The position numbers were made by a program, and so were the translations under genes. From Oceanospirillales bacterium (lineage in GTDB: Bacteria; Pseudomonadota; Gammaproteobacteria; Pseudomonadales; Balneatricaceae): DNA of 55,432 nt. Below are positions 12,795 through 23,463 of the stretch, piece after piece (position 1 is the first letter of the stretch; the number at the start of each line of letters is the position of its first letter). Under the pieces are notes generated by a model, which was given only the letters and a program-made list of their open reading frames with translations, was not told where the DNA came from and searched no databases. Location of the stretch: assembly GCA_018223185.1 (NCBI GenBank), contig JAAEYW010000024.1, positions 1 to 55,432 of the forward strand, written 5' to 3'.

Positions 12795-13886
12795 ATGAAA
12801 CGTCGTCAATTTAACAAACTGGTTACCGGTCTTGCTGCCGGTGTGTGCATCTCTGCACTCTCGGCTTTATCAGCCCAGGCCGCTACCCCCCTCAAAGTTG
12901 GCTTTGTTTATGTCGGCCCTGTTGGTGACCATGGCTGGTCATATCAACACGATCAGGGACGCAAATCGGTTGAAGCGAAGTTTGGTGATAAAGTACAAAC
13001 GACGTATGTAGAAAACGTTGCCGAAGGTGCTGACGCCCAGCGGGTAATTTATAACCTGGCAAAAACAGGGCACAACCTGATTTTCACCACCTCATTTGGT
13101 TTTATGAACCCAACGCTGAAGGTCGCTAAGCAGTTCCCCAATGTAGTCTTTGAGCATGCCACCGGCTATAAGATGGCGAAAAACCTGGGCACCTATATCT
13201 CCACCACCTTTGAAGGTCGTTATGTGGCAGGTTATGTCGCCTCTCAGGTGACAAAAAGCAACAAGATCGGCTATATCGCCTCCTTCCCGATTCCAGAGGT
13301 TATCCGCGATATCAACGCTGTACAGCTGGCACTGAACAAATACAACCCGGACGCGGAACTCAAAGTGATCTGGGTGAACAGCTGGTTTGATCCGGGTAAA
13401 GAGGCTGACGCCGCCAACGCCATGATGGATCAGGGTGTCGACGTTATTCTGCAGCATACCGACAGCCCGGCTGCGATGCAGGCAGCGGAACGCCGCGGTG
13501 CCTATGCCGTAGGTCAGGCCTCTGATATGTCTTCCTTCGGCCCACACGCTCACCTGTTATCGGTTGTAGATGAGTGGGGACCACACTATATCAAGACAGT
13601 CAAAGCGGTAATGGATGGCACCTGGACAGCCAAAGCCAATGTCGAGGGGATGAAAGAGGGATCGATTGTGGTTCCGGGCTTTAATGAAAGTATTCCTGCC
13701 GATGTTGTTCTCCATGCGAAAGAACTGATAGCCGGCATAAAAGATGGCAGCGTCTACCCGTTTGCCGGACCGATCAAAAACAAAGCCGGTGAACTGGTTG
13801 TTGCTGAAGGCGAGCGCCTTAATTATGAAGCACTGGAAAAAATGAACTGGTACGTTGAAGGGATCGACTCCGAGATCCCTAAGTAA
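12795..13886 (+). CDS. BMP-family (PnrA-like) substrate-binding lipoprotein/periplasmic protein of the purine-type importer
   Basis: A 363-residue periplasmic ligand-binding protein of the basic membrane protein (Bmp/PnrA) family, whose members bind nucleosides or purines. The signal peptide MKRRQFNKLVTGLAAGVCIS... contains a twin-arginine pair and likely cleaves after AQA (about residue 29), so Tat export is possible. No lipobox is obvious. Mature landmarks are KVGFVYVGPVGDHGWSYQHD and the conserved NVAEGADAQRVIYNLAKTGHNLIF. AGGAGAAGG precedes the ATG. It has its own -24/-12 promoter and a strong terminator, so it is a separate unit from the membrane genes. Confidence 0.9.
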   Translation: MKRRQFNKLVTGLAAGVCISALSALSAQAATPLKVGFVYVGPVGDHGWSYQHDQGRKSVEAKFGDKVQTTYVENVAEGADAQRVIYNLAKTGHNLIFTTSFGFMNPTLKVAKQFPNVVFEHATGYKMAKNLGTYISTTFEGRYVAGYVASQVTKSNKIGYIASFPIPEVIRDINAVQLALNKYNPDAELKVIWVNSWFDPGKEADAANAMMDQGVDVILQHTDSPAAMQAAERRGAYAVGQASDMSSFGPHAHLLSVVDEWGPHYIKTVKAVMDGTWTAKANVEGMKEGSIVVPGFNESIPADVVLHAKELIAGIKDGSVYPFAGPIKNKAGELVVAEGERLNYEALEKMNWYVEGIDSEIPK

Positions 13887-13920
13887 GGCGAAGCGGATCG
13901 TTCAACAGTGACAGATCCAT

Positions 13921-13958
13921 GACTTCCCCTCGCCCCTGGCGACGGGAAGTCTGTTTTT
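13921..13958 (+). terminator. Intrinsic terminator after the BMP gene
   Basis: Arms GACTTCCC (13921-13928) and GGGAAGTC (13944-13951) enclose an inner TCGCC / GGCGA stem, followed by a T-rich tail with seven consecutive T. This is a strong rho-independent terminator on the plus strand. Confidence 0.9.
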
Positions 13959-13980
13959 TTAACCGAAGCCCGATACTATT

Positions 13981-14943
13981 ATGAATATTCCTCTGATCAA
14001 TATTTCCAGTTTATATTCCGATGATGAGTCAGAAAAGCTGAAGGTTGCCAAAGCAATCGATACCGCCTGCCGGGAAAGTGGTTTTTTCTATATTCAGGGA
14101 CACCCCATCAGCAGAGAACGTCTCCAGAAGATGCACGATCTGTCACGGGAATTTTTCGCTCTCCCGGAAGCAGAAAAGATTAAAATTGATATCGCTCTGT
14201 CGGCCAACCATCGCGGTTATGGCAAGATGAAAGCTGAACAGCTGGACCCGAAACGTCCCGGTGATATCAAAGAGACCTTTGATATGGGCCTCAACCTGCC
14301 GTCTGATCATCCGTTGATCGGAGCGAACCGCCCCCTCTATGGCCCCAATCAGTATCCGCAACGGCCTGTTGATTTTCAGCTAAAAATGGAGCGTCACTAC
14401 CGGGATATGCTGGAACTGGGTAAAACGGTACTCAGCGCGCTGGCACTGGCCTTAGGGATCGACAAGGATTTTTTTACCGACAAGTTTGACCACCCGCTGA
14501 GTGTGCTGCGTTTTATCCATTACCCCGAAGTAGTAACGGATAACGGCGAAAAGCATATCGGTGCCGGCGCCCATACCGACTATGGCTGCATTACCATCCT
14601 CTGGCAGGATGAAACCGGCGGCCTGCAGGTCCAGGACACAAACGGTGAATGGATCGACGCTCCGCCTATCGATGATGCTTTTGTTATCAACATTGGCAAT
14701 ATGATGGCGCGCTGGAGCAACGACCGTTATAAGTCAACAGCCCACCGGGTCTTCAGCCCCAGCGGACAGGAGCGTTACTCGATGCCGTTCTTTGTCGAGC
14801 CGGACTTTGATACCAGAATCAGCTGTCTGGAAAACTGCTGTGCGCCCGGTGAAGCCCCCAGATATGAGCCGATTTCTGCCGGTGACTGGATGATCTACTG
14901 CTTTAACAATACCTACGCCTATCGAACTGAAGAGACCGCTTAA
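13981..14943 (+). CDS. 2-oxoglutarate/Fe(II)-dependent oxygenase, isopenicillin-N-synthase-like family
   Basis: A 320-residue non-haem iron oxygenase. The N-terminal DIOX_N region (IPLINISSL...SGFFYIQGHPI) is followed by the jelly-roll core. Iron ligands are His198, Asp200 (AHTDYG) and His255 (STAHRVF), and the 2-oxoglutarate-binding RxS is Arg265/Ser267 (RYSMPFF). The reaction is unknown. Its position straight after a purine-type importer suggests it may oxidise an imported purine or related compound, but that is inference from context. It begins 94 bp after the BMP stop, beyond a terminator, so it probably has its own promoter. Confidence 0.87.
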   Translation: MNIPLINISSLYSDDESEKLKVAKAIDTACRESGFFYIQGHPISRERLQKMHDLSREFFALPEAEKIKIDIALSANHRGYGKMKAEQLDPKRPGDIKETFDMGLNLPSDHPLIGANRPLYGPNQYPQRPVDFQLKMERHYRDMLELGKTVLSALALALGIDKDFFTDKFDHPLSVLRFIHYPEVVTDNGEKHIGAGAHTDYGCITILWQDETGGLQVQDTNGEWIDAPPIDDAFVINIGNMMARWSNDRYKSTAHRVFSPSGQERYSMPFFVEPDFDTRISCLENCCAPGEAPRYEPISAGDWMIYCFNNTYAYRTEETA

Positions 14944-14958
14944 CGCGGTCCTTGTTTT
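14934..14958 (+). terminator. Terminator overlapping the oxygenase stop codon
   Basis: GACCGC (14934-14939), loop TTAAC, GCGGTC (14945-14950), then CTTGTTTTAT. The TAA stop lies in the hairpin loop. The T-run is interrupted, so strength is moderate. Confidence 0.55.
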
Positions 14959-14988
14959 ATAGCACGGCATTACACATCTGCAGCAACA

Positions 14989-16500
14989 CTAACGGCCTTT
15001 CGCTGAGGAAAAGGGTGGTTTCGCAAACCAGACTGCAGCCATCAGTGCCAGAAAGATCCAGCCGAGCAAAGCAAAATAATCAACGGTCGAGATCATATAG
15101 GCCTGCCCATCAATCAGCCTTTCGATGCGGGCATAGTTTTGCAGCGAGGCTCCGCCCAGCAGATCCAGATAATGCTGGGTTTGCGGACTGTAAGCCGTTA
15201 TGTTTTCAGTCAGCTGCGCATGCTCTACCGCTGCCTGGCGATGCCACCACCAGGTGGTCAGCGACGACGCAAAGCTTCCCCCGAGTACCCGTAAAAAAGT
15301 CGCCAGCCCCGAGCCATCGGCAATCTCTTTATGAGACAAACTGGAAAGCAGTATCGTTGTGGCTGGCATAAAGAACAGCGCCACACCCAATCCCATTACC
15401 AGCTGAACCATGGCGATATGGTAATAGTCGATATCGATGCTGAACTGCGCCCGGGCAAAGCTAGACAGTGACATCGCCAAAAACGCGAGACTGGTCAGCA
15501 GACGCATATCAACCCGATGACCAAAACGACCCACGACAGGTGACAGTATTACCGGCACAATACCGATCGGTGCTGCCGCGAGTCCGGCCCAGACCGCGGT
15601 ATAACCCAGCTGTGTCTGCAACCATACCGGCAGTAACAGATTAAGTCCAAAAAAGGCTGAATAACCAAGTACCAGCGCGATCGTACCAAAAGTAAAATTT
15701 CGATGCCGGAACAAGCGTAAGTTGATCACCGGGTGCTCTTCCGTCAACTCCCAGATCACCATAGCGATCAGCGATACCACGGCGACCACTGTACCATAGA
15801 GCACCAAATCTGATTCAAACCAATCCAGATCATTACCCTTATCGAGCACAACCTGCAACATCCCTACTCCCAGCACCAACAGCGACAACCCAATATAATC
15901 GATAGGCACCTTTTTAGTTTCTTCCGGGCGTTTACCCAGCTGCGACCAGACAACCAGCATAGCAAACAGGCCGATCGGCAAATTGATAAAAAAGATCCAG
16001 GGCCAGGAGTAGTTATCAGTCAGCCAGCCACCGGAAATAGGCCCCAGTATAGGAGCCACAACGGCAACCATCGCCAACAGGGCCAGCGCCATACCCCGGC
16101 GTGCTGGAGGGTAGATCGATATCAGCAGAGTCTGAGCTATCGGATAGAGCGGACCAGCTACAAATCCCTGCAGCGCACGAAAGAACACCAGCTCGGGCAT
16201 CGAAGTGGCAATACCACAAAGAAACGAGGTAAACATAAACAGGAAGACAGAACCGATAAACAGTCTCACCTCACCGATACGACGGGCCATCCAGCCAGTC
16301 AGTGGCAATGCAATCGCATTACAGACTGCAAACGAGGTAATAACCCAGGTGCCCTGTTCACTACTGGCCCCGAGATTACCGGTAATCGATGTCAGTGCCA
16401 CATTAGCAATGGTGGTATCCAGTACCTGCATAAAGGTTGCCAGTGCCAGACCGATTGTGCAGAGCACCCGGTTTGACGGTATGAAACCGGTACTACTCAC
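14989..16500 (-). CDS. emrB: EmrB/QacA-type multidrug efflux MFS transporter (DHA2)
   Basis: A 503-residue proton-driven drug exporter with about 14 membrane segments. The hallmark motif C of drug antiporters is visible as APILGPISGGWLTDNYSWPWIFFINLP, and LDTTIANVALTSITGNLG is the DHA2 motif in helix 1. It forms a tripartite pump with the adaptor EmrA and an outer-membrane TolC-like channel encoded elsewhere. The ATG overlaps the emrA stop by 4 bp, so the two are translated as a coupled pair, downstream of a MarR regulator. Confidence 0.93.
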   Translation of the reverse strand: MSSTGFIPSNRVLCTIGLALATFMQVLDTTIANVALTSITGNLGASSEQGTWVITSFAVCNAIALPLTGWMARRIGEVRLFIGSVFLFMFTSFLCGIATSMPELVFFRALQGFVAGPLYPIAQTLLISIYPPARRGMALALLAMVAVVAPILGPISGGWLTDNYSWPWIFFINLPIGLFAMLVVWSQLGKRPEETKKVPIDYIGLSLLVLGVGMLQVVLDKGNDLDWFESDLVLYGTVVAVVSLIAMVIWELTEEHPVINLRLFRHRNFTFGTIALVLGYSAFFGLNLLLPVWLQTQLGYTAVWAGLAAAPIGIVPVILSPVVGRFGHRVDMRLLTSLAFLAMSLSSFARAQFSIDIDYYHIAMVQLVMGLGVALFFMPATTILLSSLSHKEIADGSGLATFLRVLGGSFASSLTTWWWHRQAAVEHAQLTENITAYSPQTQHYLDLLGGASLQNYARIERLIDGQAYMISTVDYFALLGWIFLALMAAVWFAKPPFSSAKGR

Positions 16501-19484: not shown

Positions 19485-19656
19485 TGATTTCTCCAATTTT
19501 CTTTAACTTTTTGCAACCGTTGCTGCACATTTATTACAGCCAATGCATTGGGCTAAAGCATATCATAAATAACCATGGAAAATATCTTCAGATCAGGTGT
19601 TGGCGACACGCATAACTCTTTATACTTGTCCTTTTGCATTGGACACGGATACAACG

Positions 19657-22491
19657 ATGGACAAGATAGTGGTTCGCGGCGCCAGAACACACAACCTGAA
19701 AAATATCGACATCGAGATCCCCCGGGATAAACTGGTTGTTATTACCGGGCTGTCTGGTTCCGGTAAATCGTCACTGGCATTTGATACGCTCTACGCTGAA
19801 GGCCAGCGCCGCTATGTAGAATCTCTCTCTACTTATGCCCGTCAGTTCCTGTCAATGATGGAAAAGCCTGATGTCGATCATATTGAGGGACTCTCACCCG
19901 CCATCTCAATTGAACAGAAATCCACCTCTCACAACCCTCGTTCCACCGTCGGCACCATTACCGAGATCTATGACTATCTGCGTCTGCTATTCGCCCGTGC
20001 AGGCGAACCGCGCTGCCCGGATCACGATCTGCCATTAACAGCACAAACTGTCAGTCAGATGGTCGACCAGGTTCTTGCGCTACCGGAAGGCACCAAACTA
20101 ATGCTGCTGGCTCCGGTGATTCAGGGGCGCAAAGGTGAGCACTTACACACTATTAGTGAACTGCGTGCTCAGGGCTTTGTCCGTGCCCGCGTCAACGGCA
20201 TCGTCTGCGATATCGACAGCATTCCGGATCTGGATAAGAATAAAAAGCACCACATAGAAGCGGTTGTTGATCGCTTTAAAGTCCGTGATGACCTGCAGAT
20301 CCGCCTGGCCGAATCGTTTGAAACAGCACTGGCCATGACCGACGGTATCGCCACCATCAGCTATATGGATGGTGATGGTGAAGAGCTGGTATTTTCCGCC
20401 CGGTTTGCCTGCCCGAAATGCGGTCACAGCATCCAGGAACTGGAACCACGGATGTTCTCTTTCAATAACCCTCACGGAGCGTGTTCGTCCTGTGACGGAT
20501 TGGGTGTGAAGCAGTTTTTTGACCCTCGCAAAGTAGTTTCCGATAACACTCTGACACTATCAGAAGGGGCTATCAGAGGCTGGGACCGCCGCGCGCTATA
20601 TTACTTCCAGCAGCTGAAGGCCGTAGCCGATCATTACGGTTTCAATATGGACACCCCGTTCCAAGAACTGACCACTAAACAACAGAAAATGATTCTGGAA
20701 GGCAGTGGCAAAGAGGATATCGCATTTCGTTATCTGAATGACCGCGGCGATGTAATAAGTAAATCCCACCCCTTTGAAGGCGTGCTGAACAACCTCTCCC
20801 GCCGCTACCGGGAAACTGAATCCGACATGGTGCGGGAGGATCTGGCCAAATATATCAATATGCAGGAGTGCCCCGCCTGCCATGGTAGCCGGCTACGCCG
20901 TGATGCCCGCCATGTATATATTGATGAGAAAACATTGCCTGAACTGGTGCGTCTGTCAATCGGCGACAGCTGTGATTATTTTGATAACCTTCACCTGACA
21001 GGTAAGCAGGGTGAGATCGCTGAGAAGATCCTCAAAGAGATCCGCCTGCGACTGGAGTTCCTCGTCAATGTCGGGCTCGATTACCTCTCTCTGGAACGCA
21101 GCGCCGAAACCCTCTCCGGCGGTGAAGCACAACGGATCCGACTGGCCAGCCAGATCGGTGCCGGACTGGTCGGGGTGATGTACATTCTCGACGAGCCCTC
21201 AATCGGGCTGCATCAACGCGATAACGACCGTTTGCTGAAAACCCTGATCCATCTGCGGGATCTTGGTAATACCGTGATAGTCGTGGAGCATGACGAGGAT
21301 GCAATACGTCTGGCCGACTATGTCATCGATATCGGCCCCGGCGCCGGTGTCCATGGTGGTGAGATTATCGCGCAGGGCACCCCGGCAGAACTGATGCAAT
21401 GCAAAGAATCAATGACCGCCGACTATCTCTCAGGCCGGCGCAGAATCGAAGTTCCAACCGAGCGTCACGAATCCGACGGACGCTGGCTGCAACTACATGG
21501 TGCGACAGGCAACAACCTGAACAGTGTTAACCTTGATATACCTCTGGGCCTGTTGACCTGTGTTACCGGCGTATCAGGCTCAGGTAAATCCACCCTGATC
21601 AACGGTACCCTCTACCCGATTGCCGCCACCGAACTGAATGGTGCCACCACCCTCGATGCTGCACCTTATAAAGAGCTGAAAGGAATGGATCTGCTGGATA
21701 AAGTGATCGATATCGATCAGAGCCCTATCGGGCGGACACCGCGCTCCAACCCAGCCACCTACACCGGCATTTTTACCCCCATCCGCGAACTGTTTGCGGG
21801 CACTCAGGAAGCACGTTCCCGGGGTTATAAACCGGGACGCTTCAGTTTTAATGTCAAAGGCGGCCGCTGTGAGGCCTGTCAGGGCGATGGCGTTATCAAG
21901 GTAGAGATGCATTTCCTGCCCGATATCTACGTTCCCTGCGACGTCTGTAAGGGCAAACGTTACAACCGGGAAACCCTGGAAGTTAAATACAAAGGCAAGA
22001 GCATCCACGAAGTACTGGAGATGACAGTTGAAGATGGCCGCGAATTCTTTGACGCGATTCCAGCCCTCTCCCGCCGACTACAAACCCTGATTGATGTGGG
22101 TCTCTCCTATATCCGTCTCGGGCAGGCCGCTACCACTCTGTCCGGTGGTGAAGCGCAGCGGGTAAAACTGGCCAAAGAACTGAGTAAACGGGATACCGGT
22201 AAGACCCTCTATATCCTCGATGAGCCAACCACCGGCCTGCACTTCTACGATATTCAGCAACTACTGAATGTCCTCTATCGCCTGCGCGATCATGGCAACA
22301 CCATCGTAGTGATAGAGCACAACCTGGATGTGATCAAAACCGCAGACTGGATTATCGATCTGGGCCCTGAAGGCGGCACACGCGGCGGGCATATCATCGC
22401 CACCGGCACGCCGGAAGCGGTTGCAGATATTGCAGGATCGTATACCGGGCAGTTTCTTAAGCCTTTGTTAGATAGAGCTAAGAGTAGCTAG
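19657..22491 (+). CDS. uvrA: Excinuclease ABC subunit A (UvrA)
   Basis: ATP-dependent damage recognition subunit of nucleotide excision repair. Starting at [17 protein letters not shown] gives 944 residues (E. coli 940); the extra 20 upstream codons in frame look untranslated. Domain 1 has Walker [10 protein letters not shown] (31-39), a zinc finger from CPKCG to CSSCDG, signature [14 protein letters not shown] and Walker [13 protein letters not shown]. Domain 2 has [10 protein letters not shown], a second finger from CEAC to [18 protein letters not shown] and [13 protein letters not shown]. Divergent from ssb. A LexA-box-like sequence in between is one base too long, so SOS control is not shown. 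Confidence 0.97.
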
Positions 22492-22550
22492 AACGTCGCT
22501 TCGCGACTCGCTAGACGCGGCTGCGCCGCTTGCTAGTGGCTAGAAAAAAC
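22485..22550 (-). repeat. GNA mini-hairpin cluster 1 (two units, minus orientation)
   Basis: Two tiny perfect hairpins at 22495-22507 and 22517-22529. Read on the minus strand they are GCGGC-GCA-GCCGC and GTCGC-GAA-GCGAC. Each has a 5-bp stem and a GNA triloop closed by C-G, in CTAG-containing flanks (ctagcaa before, gtctag or gttctag after). The cluster begins at the uvrA stop codon. It belongs to the same family as cluster 2 but faces the other way. Confidence 0.8.
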
Positions 22551-22561
22551 GTGAAGAGCAG

Positions 22562-22593
22562 AAAGGCTGATGCTGGTTCCATCGGCCTTTTTT
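22562..22593 (+). terminator. Intrinsic terminator of uvrA
   Basis: AAAGGCTGATG (22562-22572) pairs with CATCGGCCTTT (22580-22590) with one G-T wobble, a 7-base loop, and a T-tract of six. Confidence 0.85.
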
Positions 22594-22880
22594 ATAGGTA
22601 TTCGATACAGGTCAGTCGAACACTTAAAAAAGAGCTCAAATCGCAATACGGATGCATTATCATTATCCAAAACGATATTGGTAAACAGGGGCGCAATTAC
22701 CATCCAAAAGACTAGGGAAAAATCTACATTCAAGCGGATATTCATACTGCTGACAATCGCAATGGTCATTGTGATTACCGTTTAGCTGATATATTTTTCT
22801 ATAAATATTTTCTCCTCAAATATGAAATTAACATTTCACTGAAGATGGCAGAGACTTAATGATTCGTGCGTTTGACTTCC
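22594..22880. other. A/T-rich intergenic segment between the two hairpin clusters
   Basis: About 290 bp of lower GC than its surroundings. Short ORFs on both strands (71 codons plus, 78 codons minus) run into the uvrA terminator or hairpins and have no ribosome binding site or recognisable domain. One ends in a hydrophobic stretch, but I do not support a gene here. Confidence 0.6.
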
Positions 22881-22996
22881 TAGCAAGTCCCGAAGGGACG
22901 TCTAACCACTAGCAGGAAGCGTAGCTTCCGTTCTTGCCAGCACCGCAGGTGCGTTCTGCTTTTATCCGTTCTAGCGAGCGCCGCAGGCGCGGTCTG
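22880..22996 (+). repeat. GNA mini-hairpin cluster 2 (four units)
   Basis: Four consecutive hairpins at 22887-22899 (GTCCC-GAA-GGGAC), 22915-22929 (GGAAGC-GTA-GCTTCC), 22940-22952 (GCACC-GCA-GGTGC) and 22978-22990 (GCGCC-GCA-GGCGC). Flanks follow tagcaa or tagcga before and gttct or gtct after. Stem sequences differ from unit to unit but pairing is always perfect, and the loop is always GNA with a C-G closing pair. Confidence 0.85.
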
Positions 22997-23025
22997 CGGG
23001 TGTTTTTGAGCCCGATTTCCAGGCG

Positions 23026-23054
23026 AAAAAAAACCCGGCATAAGCCGGGTTTTA
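23026..23054. terminator. Terminator of the alpha operon (after rplQ)
   Basis: AAACCCGGC (23031-23039), loop ATAA, GCCGGGTTT (23044-23052), flanked by A-run and T-rich sequence. It acts on the minus strand at the end of the ribosomal protein block. Confidence 0.9.
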
Positions 23055-23070
23055 TTAAGAGTCGAAGAGA

Positions 23071-23463
23071 TTAATCTTCAGAATCTTCTACCGCTACAGC
23101 ATCCGCTGGACGGTCAACCAGTTCAACGTAAGCCATCGGAGCGTTGTCACCAGTACGGAATCCACATTTCAGAATGCGAATGTATCCGCCTGGACGACCT
23201 TCGTAGCGAGGACCCAGTTCGTTAAACAGTTTACCGACAGCTTCTTTGCTGCGGGTACGGGCAAAGGCCAGACGACGGTTAGCAACCGAGTCTACTTTTG
23301 CCAGTGTGATCAGAGGCTCAGCAACACGACGCAGCTCTTTAGCTTTAGGCAGCGTGGTCTTGATGAGCTCATGTTCGAACAGGCTTACAGCCATGTTCTT
23401 GAACATTGCTTTACGGTGCGCACTTGTACGATTAAAGTGACGACCTGATTTACGATGACGCAT
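23071..23463 (-). CDS. rplQ: 50S ribosomal protein L17
   Basis: Large-subunit protein near the peptide exit tunnel. The 130-residue product opens with [24 protein letters not shown], the invariant L17 N-terminus, and ends with an acidic tail (VAVEDSED). It is the last gene of the alpha operon, directly after rpoA and before a terminator, as in E. coli. Confidence 0.98.

Follow-up and report, generated by a model that had tools for sequence, protein, structure and literature searches.

What keeps six small hairpins perfectly paired when no two of them share a stem sequence? The question is raised by the 579-base spacer between uvrA and rplQ in a 55,432-nt stretch of DNA from an Oceanospirillales bacterium (assembly GCA_018223185.1, contig JAAEYW010000024.1; hereafter, the window), where an original prediction had described perfect hairpins with GNA triloops closed by C-G. 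Following these hairpins across related genomes, we tentatively favor the reading that they belong to a family resembling repetitive extragenic palindromic (REP) sequences, found, within the scope of our searches, only in part of the genus Amphritea. Members of this family would be single-stranded DNA (ssDNA) hairpin modules, spread by a nuclease and kept paired by a role at the DNA level. This is our leading reading, albeit one to which we assign somewhat less than an even chance.

Hairpins at the uvrA–rplQ locus

A hairpin scan located all six hairpins; pairing is perfect throughout, the closing pair is always C-G, and the stems measure 5, 5, 5, 6, 5 and 5 bp, in six different sequences. uvrA (19597..22491, plus strand, recognized by its UvrA domains) is followed by two minus-strand hairpins, and rplQ, encoding ribosomal protein L17 (23071..23463, minus strand; PF01196), by four plus-strand ones. 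Each gene end faces its array, and both arrays share one orientation relative to their own gene. Array 1 (22485..22550, minus strand) comprises two modules, read from CGTTTTTTCTAGCC toward the uvrA stop codon, whose TAG (22489-22491) doubles as the TAG of the first CTAG in the array. Its hairpins are GTCGC-GAA-GCGAC (22495..22507, flanked by CTAGCGA and GTTCT, and also found by the descriptor given below) and GCGGC-GCA-GCCGC (22517..22529, flanked by CTAGCAA and GTCT). Array 2 (22877..22996, plus strand), with four modules reading toward the rplQ stop, contains GTCCC-GAA-GGGAC (22887..22899), the 6-bp hairpin GGAAGC-GTA-GCTTCC (22915..22929), GCACC-GCA-GGTGC (22940..22952, flanked by CTTGCCA and GTTCT) and GCGCC-GCA-GGCGC (22978..22990, flanked by CTAGCGA and GGTCT). 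The flank rule initially proposed held in part: CTAGCRA precedes four of the six hairpins, the exceptions being the fourth unit, with a 5′ flank one base shorter (CTAGCA), and the fifth (CTTGCCA); on the 3′ side, GTCT, GTTCT or GGTCT is found. GTAG occupies the place of the tag in none of the six. Over the whole window, GNA hairpins with stems of at least 5 bp number eight, compared with a mean of 1.4 and a maximum of 5 in 50 first-order shuffles; the two outside the spacer are isolated.

By-eye alignment with other species revealed change within this spacer. The counterpart of 22887-22899 in genome G306 reads GTGGC-GAA-GCCAC, with two pairs different and pairing intact, and a 38-nt module (22935..22972, plus strand) is common to the window genome and A. 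pacifica (locus L191), being missing at the same place in G306. A signal-peptidase gene (PF10502) sits between uvrA and rplQ in G306 (L145:2107-2667) and is lacking in A. pacifica L191; in the window, the region between both arrays (~22690-22800) retains only short similarity, again judged by eye, to the start of that gene.

A dispersed family with a fixed module

In the window genome (G000; 4.6 Mb in 43 contigs), the basic descriptor CTAGCNA-N5-GNA-N5-GNTCT, which fixes no stem letters, matched 27 times, and the reversed pattern used as a control matched once. Across these 27 units, pairing holds at 128 of 135 stem positions, whereas 2000 shuffles of the 3′ arms among units gave a mean of 98 and never more than 111. 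The proposal that structure is kept while sequence drifts thus found support, in the form of a dispersed family, and the alternative of simple duplicates fails. The extra-stable GNA triloop was likewise borne out as a constant feature. Minihairpins of the type d(GCGNAGC) are known from synthetic oligonucleotides, and the first and last bases of GNA loops form a sheared pair; in most Amphritea units this minihairpin is the exact core, in this case of a repeat dispersed over the genome.

With E values up to 0.1 admitted, and with counts that are lower bounds as 150 candidates were scored for each genome, a covariance model gave at least 73 matches in G000, 120 in G293, 88 in G295, 77 in G299, 72 in G301, 44 in G302, 28 in G303, 118 in G306, 19 in G296 and 11 in G304, and 0-2 in seven other genomes. 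Enrichment was confined to the genus of the window genome among 116 genomes of the family (0-2 matches in the others), and to the window genome among 293 genomes of the order. A stricter descriptor, applied to one genome per species for 84,980 species, returned 68 stretches, every one titled Amphritea (A. atlantica, A. balenae, A. pacifica and uncultured Amphritea; records of the window genome may be omitted). A pattern scan of viral contigs gave 0 matches, and the window spacer had no match among plasmids. In a tree of rpoA-rplQ, i.e. one locus from 16 of 17 genomes (G303, lacking an rplQ match, is not included) without support values, the rich carriers form two clades, one of them with the non-carriers G294, G300 and G305 as sister; G296 and G304, which are poor in units, split off earlier, and four outgroup species have none. 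Gain within the genus plus one loss most simply accounts for this distribution.

Most loci were picked because they hold units; ten 20-kb stretches per genome at round coordinates served as an independent check (one of them, G295 100001-120000, overlaps a selected locus). Intergenic GNA hairpins of at least 5 bp numbered 4 and 8 in the carriers G299 and G295, and 0 and 2 in G294 and G298. Eleven of the twelve carrier hairpins lie directly behind CTAG and one behind CCAG; neither of those in G298 is a unit. For G299, G295, G294 and G298, respectively, coding GNA hairpins numbered 2, 8, 3 and 9, and an ANG-loop control gave 1, 0, 1 and 1 intergenic and 4, 6, 5 and 9 coding hairpins.

On the GNA-carrying strand, the module reads AGCNA-stem-GNA-stem-GNTCT. 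An array starts with GCTTTTTCT, followed by modules, and a hairpin-less heptamer, A[AG]CNACT, sometimes stands between them or at the end. Of 167 linkers, 152 measure 9-10 or 15-17 nt, and neighboring units within 60 nt of each other share their orientation in 167 of 168; runs of one, two, three and four units occur 132, 116, 18 and 5 times. At array starts (n = 146), the GC before the T-run is conserved at 79% and 77%, and farther out there is only a T-rich patch (51-64%); at the other end, conservation ceases past A[AG]CNACT (125 cases). GCTTTTTC occurs 79 times antisense and 24 times sense in 56 kb of array-bearing 3′ regions, versus 8 and 9 times in 95.5 kb of array-free 3′ regions. As it is rare in the latter, the T-tract is disfavored as a pre-existing insertion target.

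Stems measure 4-7 bp, mostly 5. Among 346 flank-defined units, 281 have perfect stems, in 18 sequences: pair 1 is always G-C and pair 5 always C-G, and pairs 2-4 vary freely, in 18 combinations. The loops of the 346 units are GAA (171), GCA (128), GTA (38) and GGA (9), and within CT[AG]GC flanks the tag is CTAG in 280 of 303 cases and CTGG in 23. Next to the short 3′ flank GTCT, the free 5′ base is A in 134 of 144 units. With long flanks, the two free bases are not independent (chi-square 150, 9 degrees of freedom; G.T 57, A.T 35, C.A 35, T.G 22, G.G 16, C.T 14, T.A 6, G.C and C.G together 5), which suggests that they touch in the folded form. Single mismatches (n = 38) included 12 G.T and 14 A.C (7 versus 12 in a smaller, earlier set of loci); this strand test by wobble pairs gave no signal for G.U tolerance on either strand, which favors pairing as DNA over pairing as RNA. 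A second hairpin, GCAACG-NGCTYTT-CGTTGC, was found 11 times between flanks of this type. Head-to-tail order, orientation to stop codons, element ends, the flank-base correlation and the restriction to part of one genus lay outside the original interpretation, which is supported in part.

Change in place and orientation behind genes

Perfect query units were compared with the aligned place in other species, all rates thus being conditional on a perfect query and the comparisons non-independent. Among 684 comparisons, 389 stems were identical, 80 fully re-paired, 10 mixed and 44 broken, with gaps inside the unit in the remaining 161. Changed stems in ungapped comparisons were hence fully re-paired in 80 of 134 cases; these 80 derive from 31 distinct hairpin pairs, and two or three base pairs had changed in 39 of them. 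REPs tagged GTAG from the same set of loci yielded 29 identical, 0 re-paired, 12 broken, 2 mixed and 13 gapped comparisons (a small sample); the difference in re-pairing, 80/134 versus 0/14, gives a Fisher value of 8e-6 when the non-independent comparisons are taken as independent. The middle loop base differs in 23 of the 80 re-paired and in 99 of the 389 unchanged units. Because these rates are alike and far below the 61% expected for random unit swaps, re-pairing probably took place in the resident unit, and replacement of whole units is disfavored as its source. Substitution between species affects the loop G in 2.6%, the loop A in 1.8% and the middle loop base in 26%, the loop ends thus changing about tenfold more slowly than the base between them; stem bases differ in 6.3%, against 13.7% for the alignable intergenic background (391 gap-free of 501 comparisons). 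In addition, modules were gained or lost between species.

Such patterns might arise without any function or dedicated enzyme, if slippage or recombination at CTAGC repeats lengthened and shortened arrays of passive DNA hairpins and template switching during replication re-made their palindromes. Strict Watson-Crick pairing with no G.U preference, changes of two or three pairs at once, large local duplications and the many indels with microhomologies such as CTAGC all fit this explanation, and an excerpt of PMC8794818 describes how template switching can fix the base pairing of stems, so that part of the re-pairing could be of this origin. However, the GTAG REPs from the same set of loci showed no full re-pairing (0/14), template switching leaves the conservation of loop ends and flanks unexplained, and passive hairpins would have no route to tens of separate loci or to an orientation behind stop codons. 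Overall, we consider this account doubtful.

The units do prefer one orientation relative to genes. With open reading frames called by a simple script, 18 of 370 distinct units lie inside them. In tandem spacers, the GNA strand is antisense to the upstream gene in 106 units and opposite in 23; in convergent spacers, 111 units face the nearest gene end in the corresponding, proper way and 31 do otherwise; divergent spacers (41) and locus edges (40) account for the remainder. The nearest facing stop codon lies at a median of 55 nt (271 units), or 49 nt if only the 217 units in the majority orientation are counted; among 80 genes with a unit no more than 25 nt away (duplicates not removed), 28 have their stop codon supplied by the tag. 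The few units in round-coordinate stretches comprise 6 convergent and 2 tandem in proper and 2 tandem in opposite orientation.

A role of the units as RNA elements in 3′ untranslated regions would explain this orientation better. Here, transcribed sense hairpins with a UNC loop would bind a protein or block exonucleases, selection would keep them paired and some form of copying would spread them. Re-pairing in place agrees with this, and, because arrays in convergent spacers point opposite ways, replication direction is unlikely as the cause of the orientation. Of 174 sense-placed arrays, moreover, 34 have a terminator-like site after them and 18 before them, and 159 of 1331 unit-free genes have one. 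Yet this excess is modest, the strand bearing the fixed G and A of the sheared-pair triloop is mostly the antisense one, and mismatches that would be G.U in sense RNA barely outnumber the opposite kind (14 A.C on the GNA strand against 12). Folding energy is not below that of shuffles on either strand, and tandem units of G295 at round coordinates split 2 to 2, although these numbers are small. Finally, a search of 22300-23100 against Rfam 15 yielded no match at the gathering score, in agreement with the earlier remark that the element was not recognized as a named family; its 12 sub-threshold hits all overlap a terminator-like inverted repeat with A/T tracts, found by an inverted-repeat search between array 2 and the rplQ stop (23027..23056). 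Taken together, an RNA element is a serious candidate but rather unlikely.

Unlikely as well, in our estimate, is a host-maintained DNA hairpin code, in which a genus-specific factor other than a REP-associated tyrosine transposase (RAYT) would read GNA mini-hairpins behind tens of genes per genome, with pairing, loop ends and the two N bases of the flanks under joint selection. Were it true, the units would represent, to our knowledge, the first REP-like repeat with structural selection in place and a preferred gene orientation.

Two observations concern the genes beside arrays. In a region seen at L207, L235 and L199, the arrays behind several genes in a row share their local stems (GTCGC with GGGC), which looks like local homogenization. 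Among 453 proteins encoded next to arrays, one family alone had three or more members in a genome, an EAL-like signaling family named from reading its sequence (L251:6537, L187:2, L177:1944, L216:2231); its position beside arrays is probably due to chance.

A proposed nuclease and relation to known repeats

According to the reading we favor, that of nuclease-spread ssDNA modules, the unit on the GNA-carrying strand is CT/AG-CNA-[GNNNC-GNA-GNNNC]-GN-T-CT/, with slashes at the proposed joints. This strand would fold once single-stranded, and a Y1/HUH-type nuclease that reads hairpins, possibly a RAYT in the wide sense, would excise modules and join them at CT. Re-insertion beside an existing module would generate head-to-tail arrays, and pairing would be kept since unpaired modules would lose the DNA-level role of the hairpin behind the stop codon. 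A continuing role, or processing of resident copies, has to be assumed here because mobility by itself leaves in-place repair unaccounted for.

The constraints on the units, namely Watson-Crick stems, fixed loop ends, AG before the hairpin and CT to either side of it, correspond to those of a substrate that is recognized in its folded, single-stranded form. As they resemble the REP substrate of Marinomonas, our analysis points to a Y1/HUH-like single-strand nuclease as the agent that most likely made and spread the modules. In that group-3 system, as far as an excerpt of PMC8266576 describes it, the substrate has a perfect 5-bp stem in which positions 2 and 3 are replaceable and a mismatch is harmful, three of four loop positions are fixed, and the AG of GTAG guides cuts at CT or CA. 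The same excerpt shows REPMb of Marinomonas sp. MWYL1 (REPtron group 3) to share with the Amphritea units the 5-bp perfect palindrome, a small and mostly fixed loop, an AG-ending tetranucleotide on the 5′ side, CT sites on both sides, intolerance of mismatches and replaceable inner pairs. REPMb differs in its GTAG tag, two bases to the stem and 4-nt loop (CTAG, three bases and a GNA triloop in Amphritea), and in being gathered at the tnpAREP gene, whereas the Amphritea units are genome-wide, head-to-tail and gene-oriented (PMC8266576, excerpt). Neither an RNA role nor template switching alone explains all the observations on the Amphritea units.

Several results weigh against this reading. ssDNA transposition does not predict the gene orientation, nor does selfish mobility predict re-pairing in place. 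Clean empty sites were absent from 66 split-alignment comparisons, five of which had no units in the partner (unsplit alignments were skipped). Indel ends could be placed at CT in 18 of 39 cases versus 3.2 expected, but GC (18), AG (16) and TA (15) fit likewise; as CTAGC is repeated, CT is not distinctive, and ordinary recombination therefore also fits. By eye, the uvrA-rplQ locus of G301 and G302 contains degenerate units only. Moreover, RAYT searches of 17 genomes (26 matches to Pfam Y1_Tnp; 40, many of them partial, to a profile of seven RAYTs of the genus at E up to 10) did not uncover a cutting enzyme for the CTAG units. Beyond a single RAYT each, they gave nothing convincing in G000 or G295, and the carrier G296 had none; the sole significant match of G000 and G295 is of the type that carries GTAG repeats. 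RAYT types do not follow copy number: types A (148 amino acids, with GTAG repeats) and B occur in carriers and non-carriers alike, and type C was seen only in the carriers G293, G299 and G306, not in G000, G295, G301 or G302 (G303 was not typed). The linked RAYT that the original prediction had envisaged did not materialize either, given that only one of 36 RAYT-like loci fetched from the genus with flanks of ~1-2 kb, L084 of G299, carries a CTAG unit with both flanks, at a distance of ~1.1 kb from the RAYT gene. One further locus (L354, G293) has a one-flank unit. Linkage is thus at about chance level, as the copy density of carriers would give 1-2 in ~65 kb of carrier sequence by our own estimate. 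The array at L084 (405-452) accompanies a type-C RAYT gene.

A reverse transcriptase was rejected as the copier; four of the 17 genomes had matches, one of which fell below the cut-off, in a pattern unlike that of the carriers. Six such loci fetched from G295 and G306 contain no unit, and that of G000 (L304) has one at its edge.

A very improbable explanation, already weakened by these findings, is that the units are ordinary GTAG-type REPs with a mutated tag, moved by the resident RAYT. The units match the REPs of the GTAG and CGTC superfamilies in size and copy number, in lying between genes close to gene ends and in tag-supplied stops (28/80); in the portion of PMC3733652 used here, those REPs are described as extragenic palindromes of 20-40 nt behind genes whose tag gives TAG stops. 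But the tag is CTAG rather than GTAG, RAYT linkage does not exceed chance, units stand head-to-tail rather than mainly as inverted pairs and re-pair in place, and the resident RAYT has GTAG repeats of its own. According to the same portion (PMC3733652), inverted head-head dimers predominate in both superfamilies, the tags of which the Amphritea units lack, and CGTC REPs, which also occur without a dedicated transposase, combine their tag with an 8-9 bp stem and a 4-5 nt loop; the Amphritea units have CTAG, stems of 4-7 bp and a triloop. As the hairpins come after genes, integron attC sites, with their core sites, integrase and cassette array, were considered for comparison as well.

The CTAG units are thus short palindromes, extragenic and present in many copies, yet with neither a GTAG/GTRG tag, nor a RAYT gene flanked by copies, nor inverted dimers or the order of bacterial interspersed mosaic elements (BIMEs). 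Lacking these three defining features while sharing the general ones, they are, in our view, REP-like and new; a published description was not found in open-licence literature on Amphritea repeats and palindromes or Oceanospirillaceae REPs. REPs are usually viewed as mobile relics. Two hairpin families in the same genomes and loci, one often re-paired in place and the other never so among the cases examined, provide a natural comparison with which to ask whether ssDNA hairpins are selected in bacteria, and the CTAG units offer a substrate for finding a hairpin-reading enzyme. The precise descriptor and named carriers (A. atlantica, A. pacifica, A. balenae) make most tests cheap.

The GTAG repeats of type-A RAYTs in Amphritea (L028) share the genomes and intergenic position of the CTAG units and sometimes the same duplicated segment (L245). 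They differ in sequence (GTAGGAGC...) and in having a 6-bp stem with a 3-nt loop in 53 of 71 cases; adjacent pairs within 100 nt are inverted in 12 of 19 cases and equally oriented in 7. In the window genome, such GTAG-tagged repeats flank the sole significant Y1_Tnp match (G000:C17:46847-47161), beside which an 89-bp unit with GTAG REPs is repeated in tandem about six times (L028:847-1397). In G295, tandem units of 128-259 bp and 210-413 bp (L245:8680-9203 and 13723-15072) contain GTAG-type and CTAG hairpins behind neighboring genes. Type-B RAYTs, which are similar to YafM of E. coli, are accompanied by GTAG-type palindromes at L091, L092 and L107 and by a version with one base changed at L093, none being seen at L090 and L103. 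At L107 (G304, 1058-2320), five GTAG-tagged GGTGCGTT palindromes lie beside the type-B gene, representing a third REP sequence in the genus.

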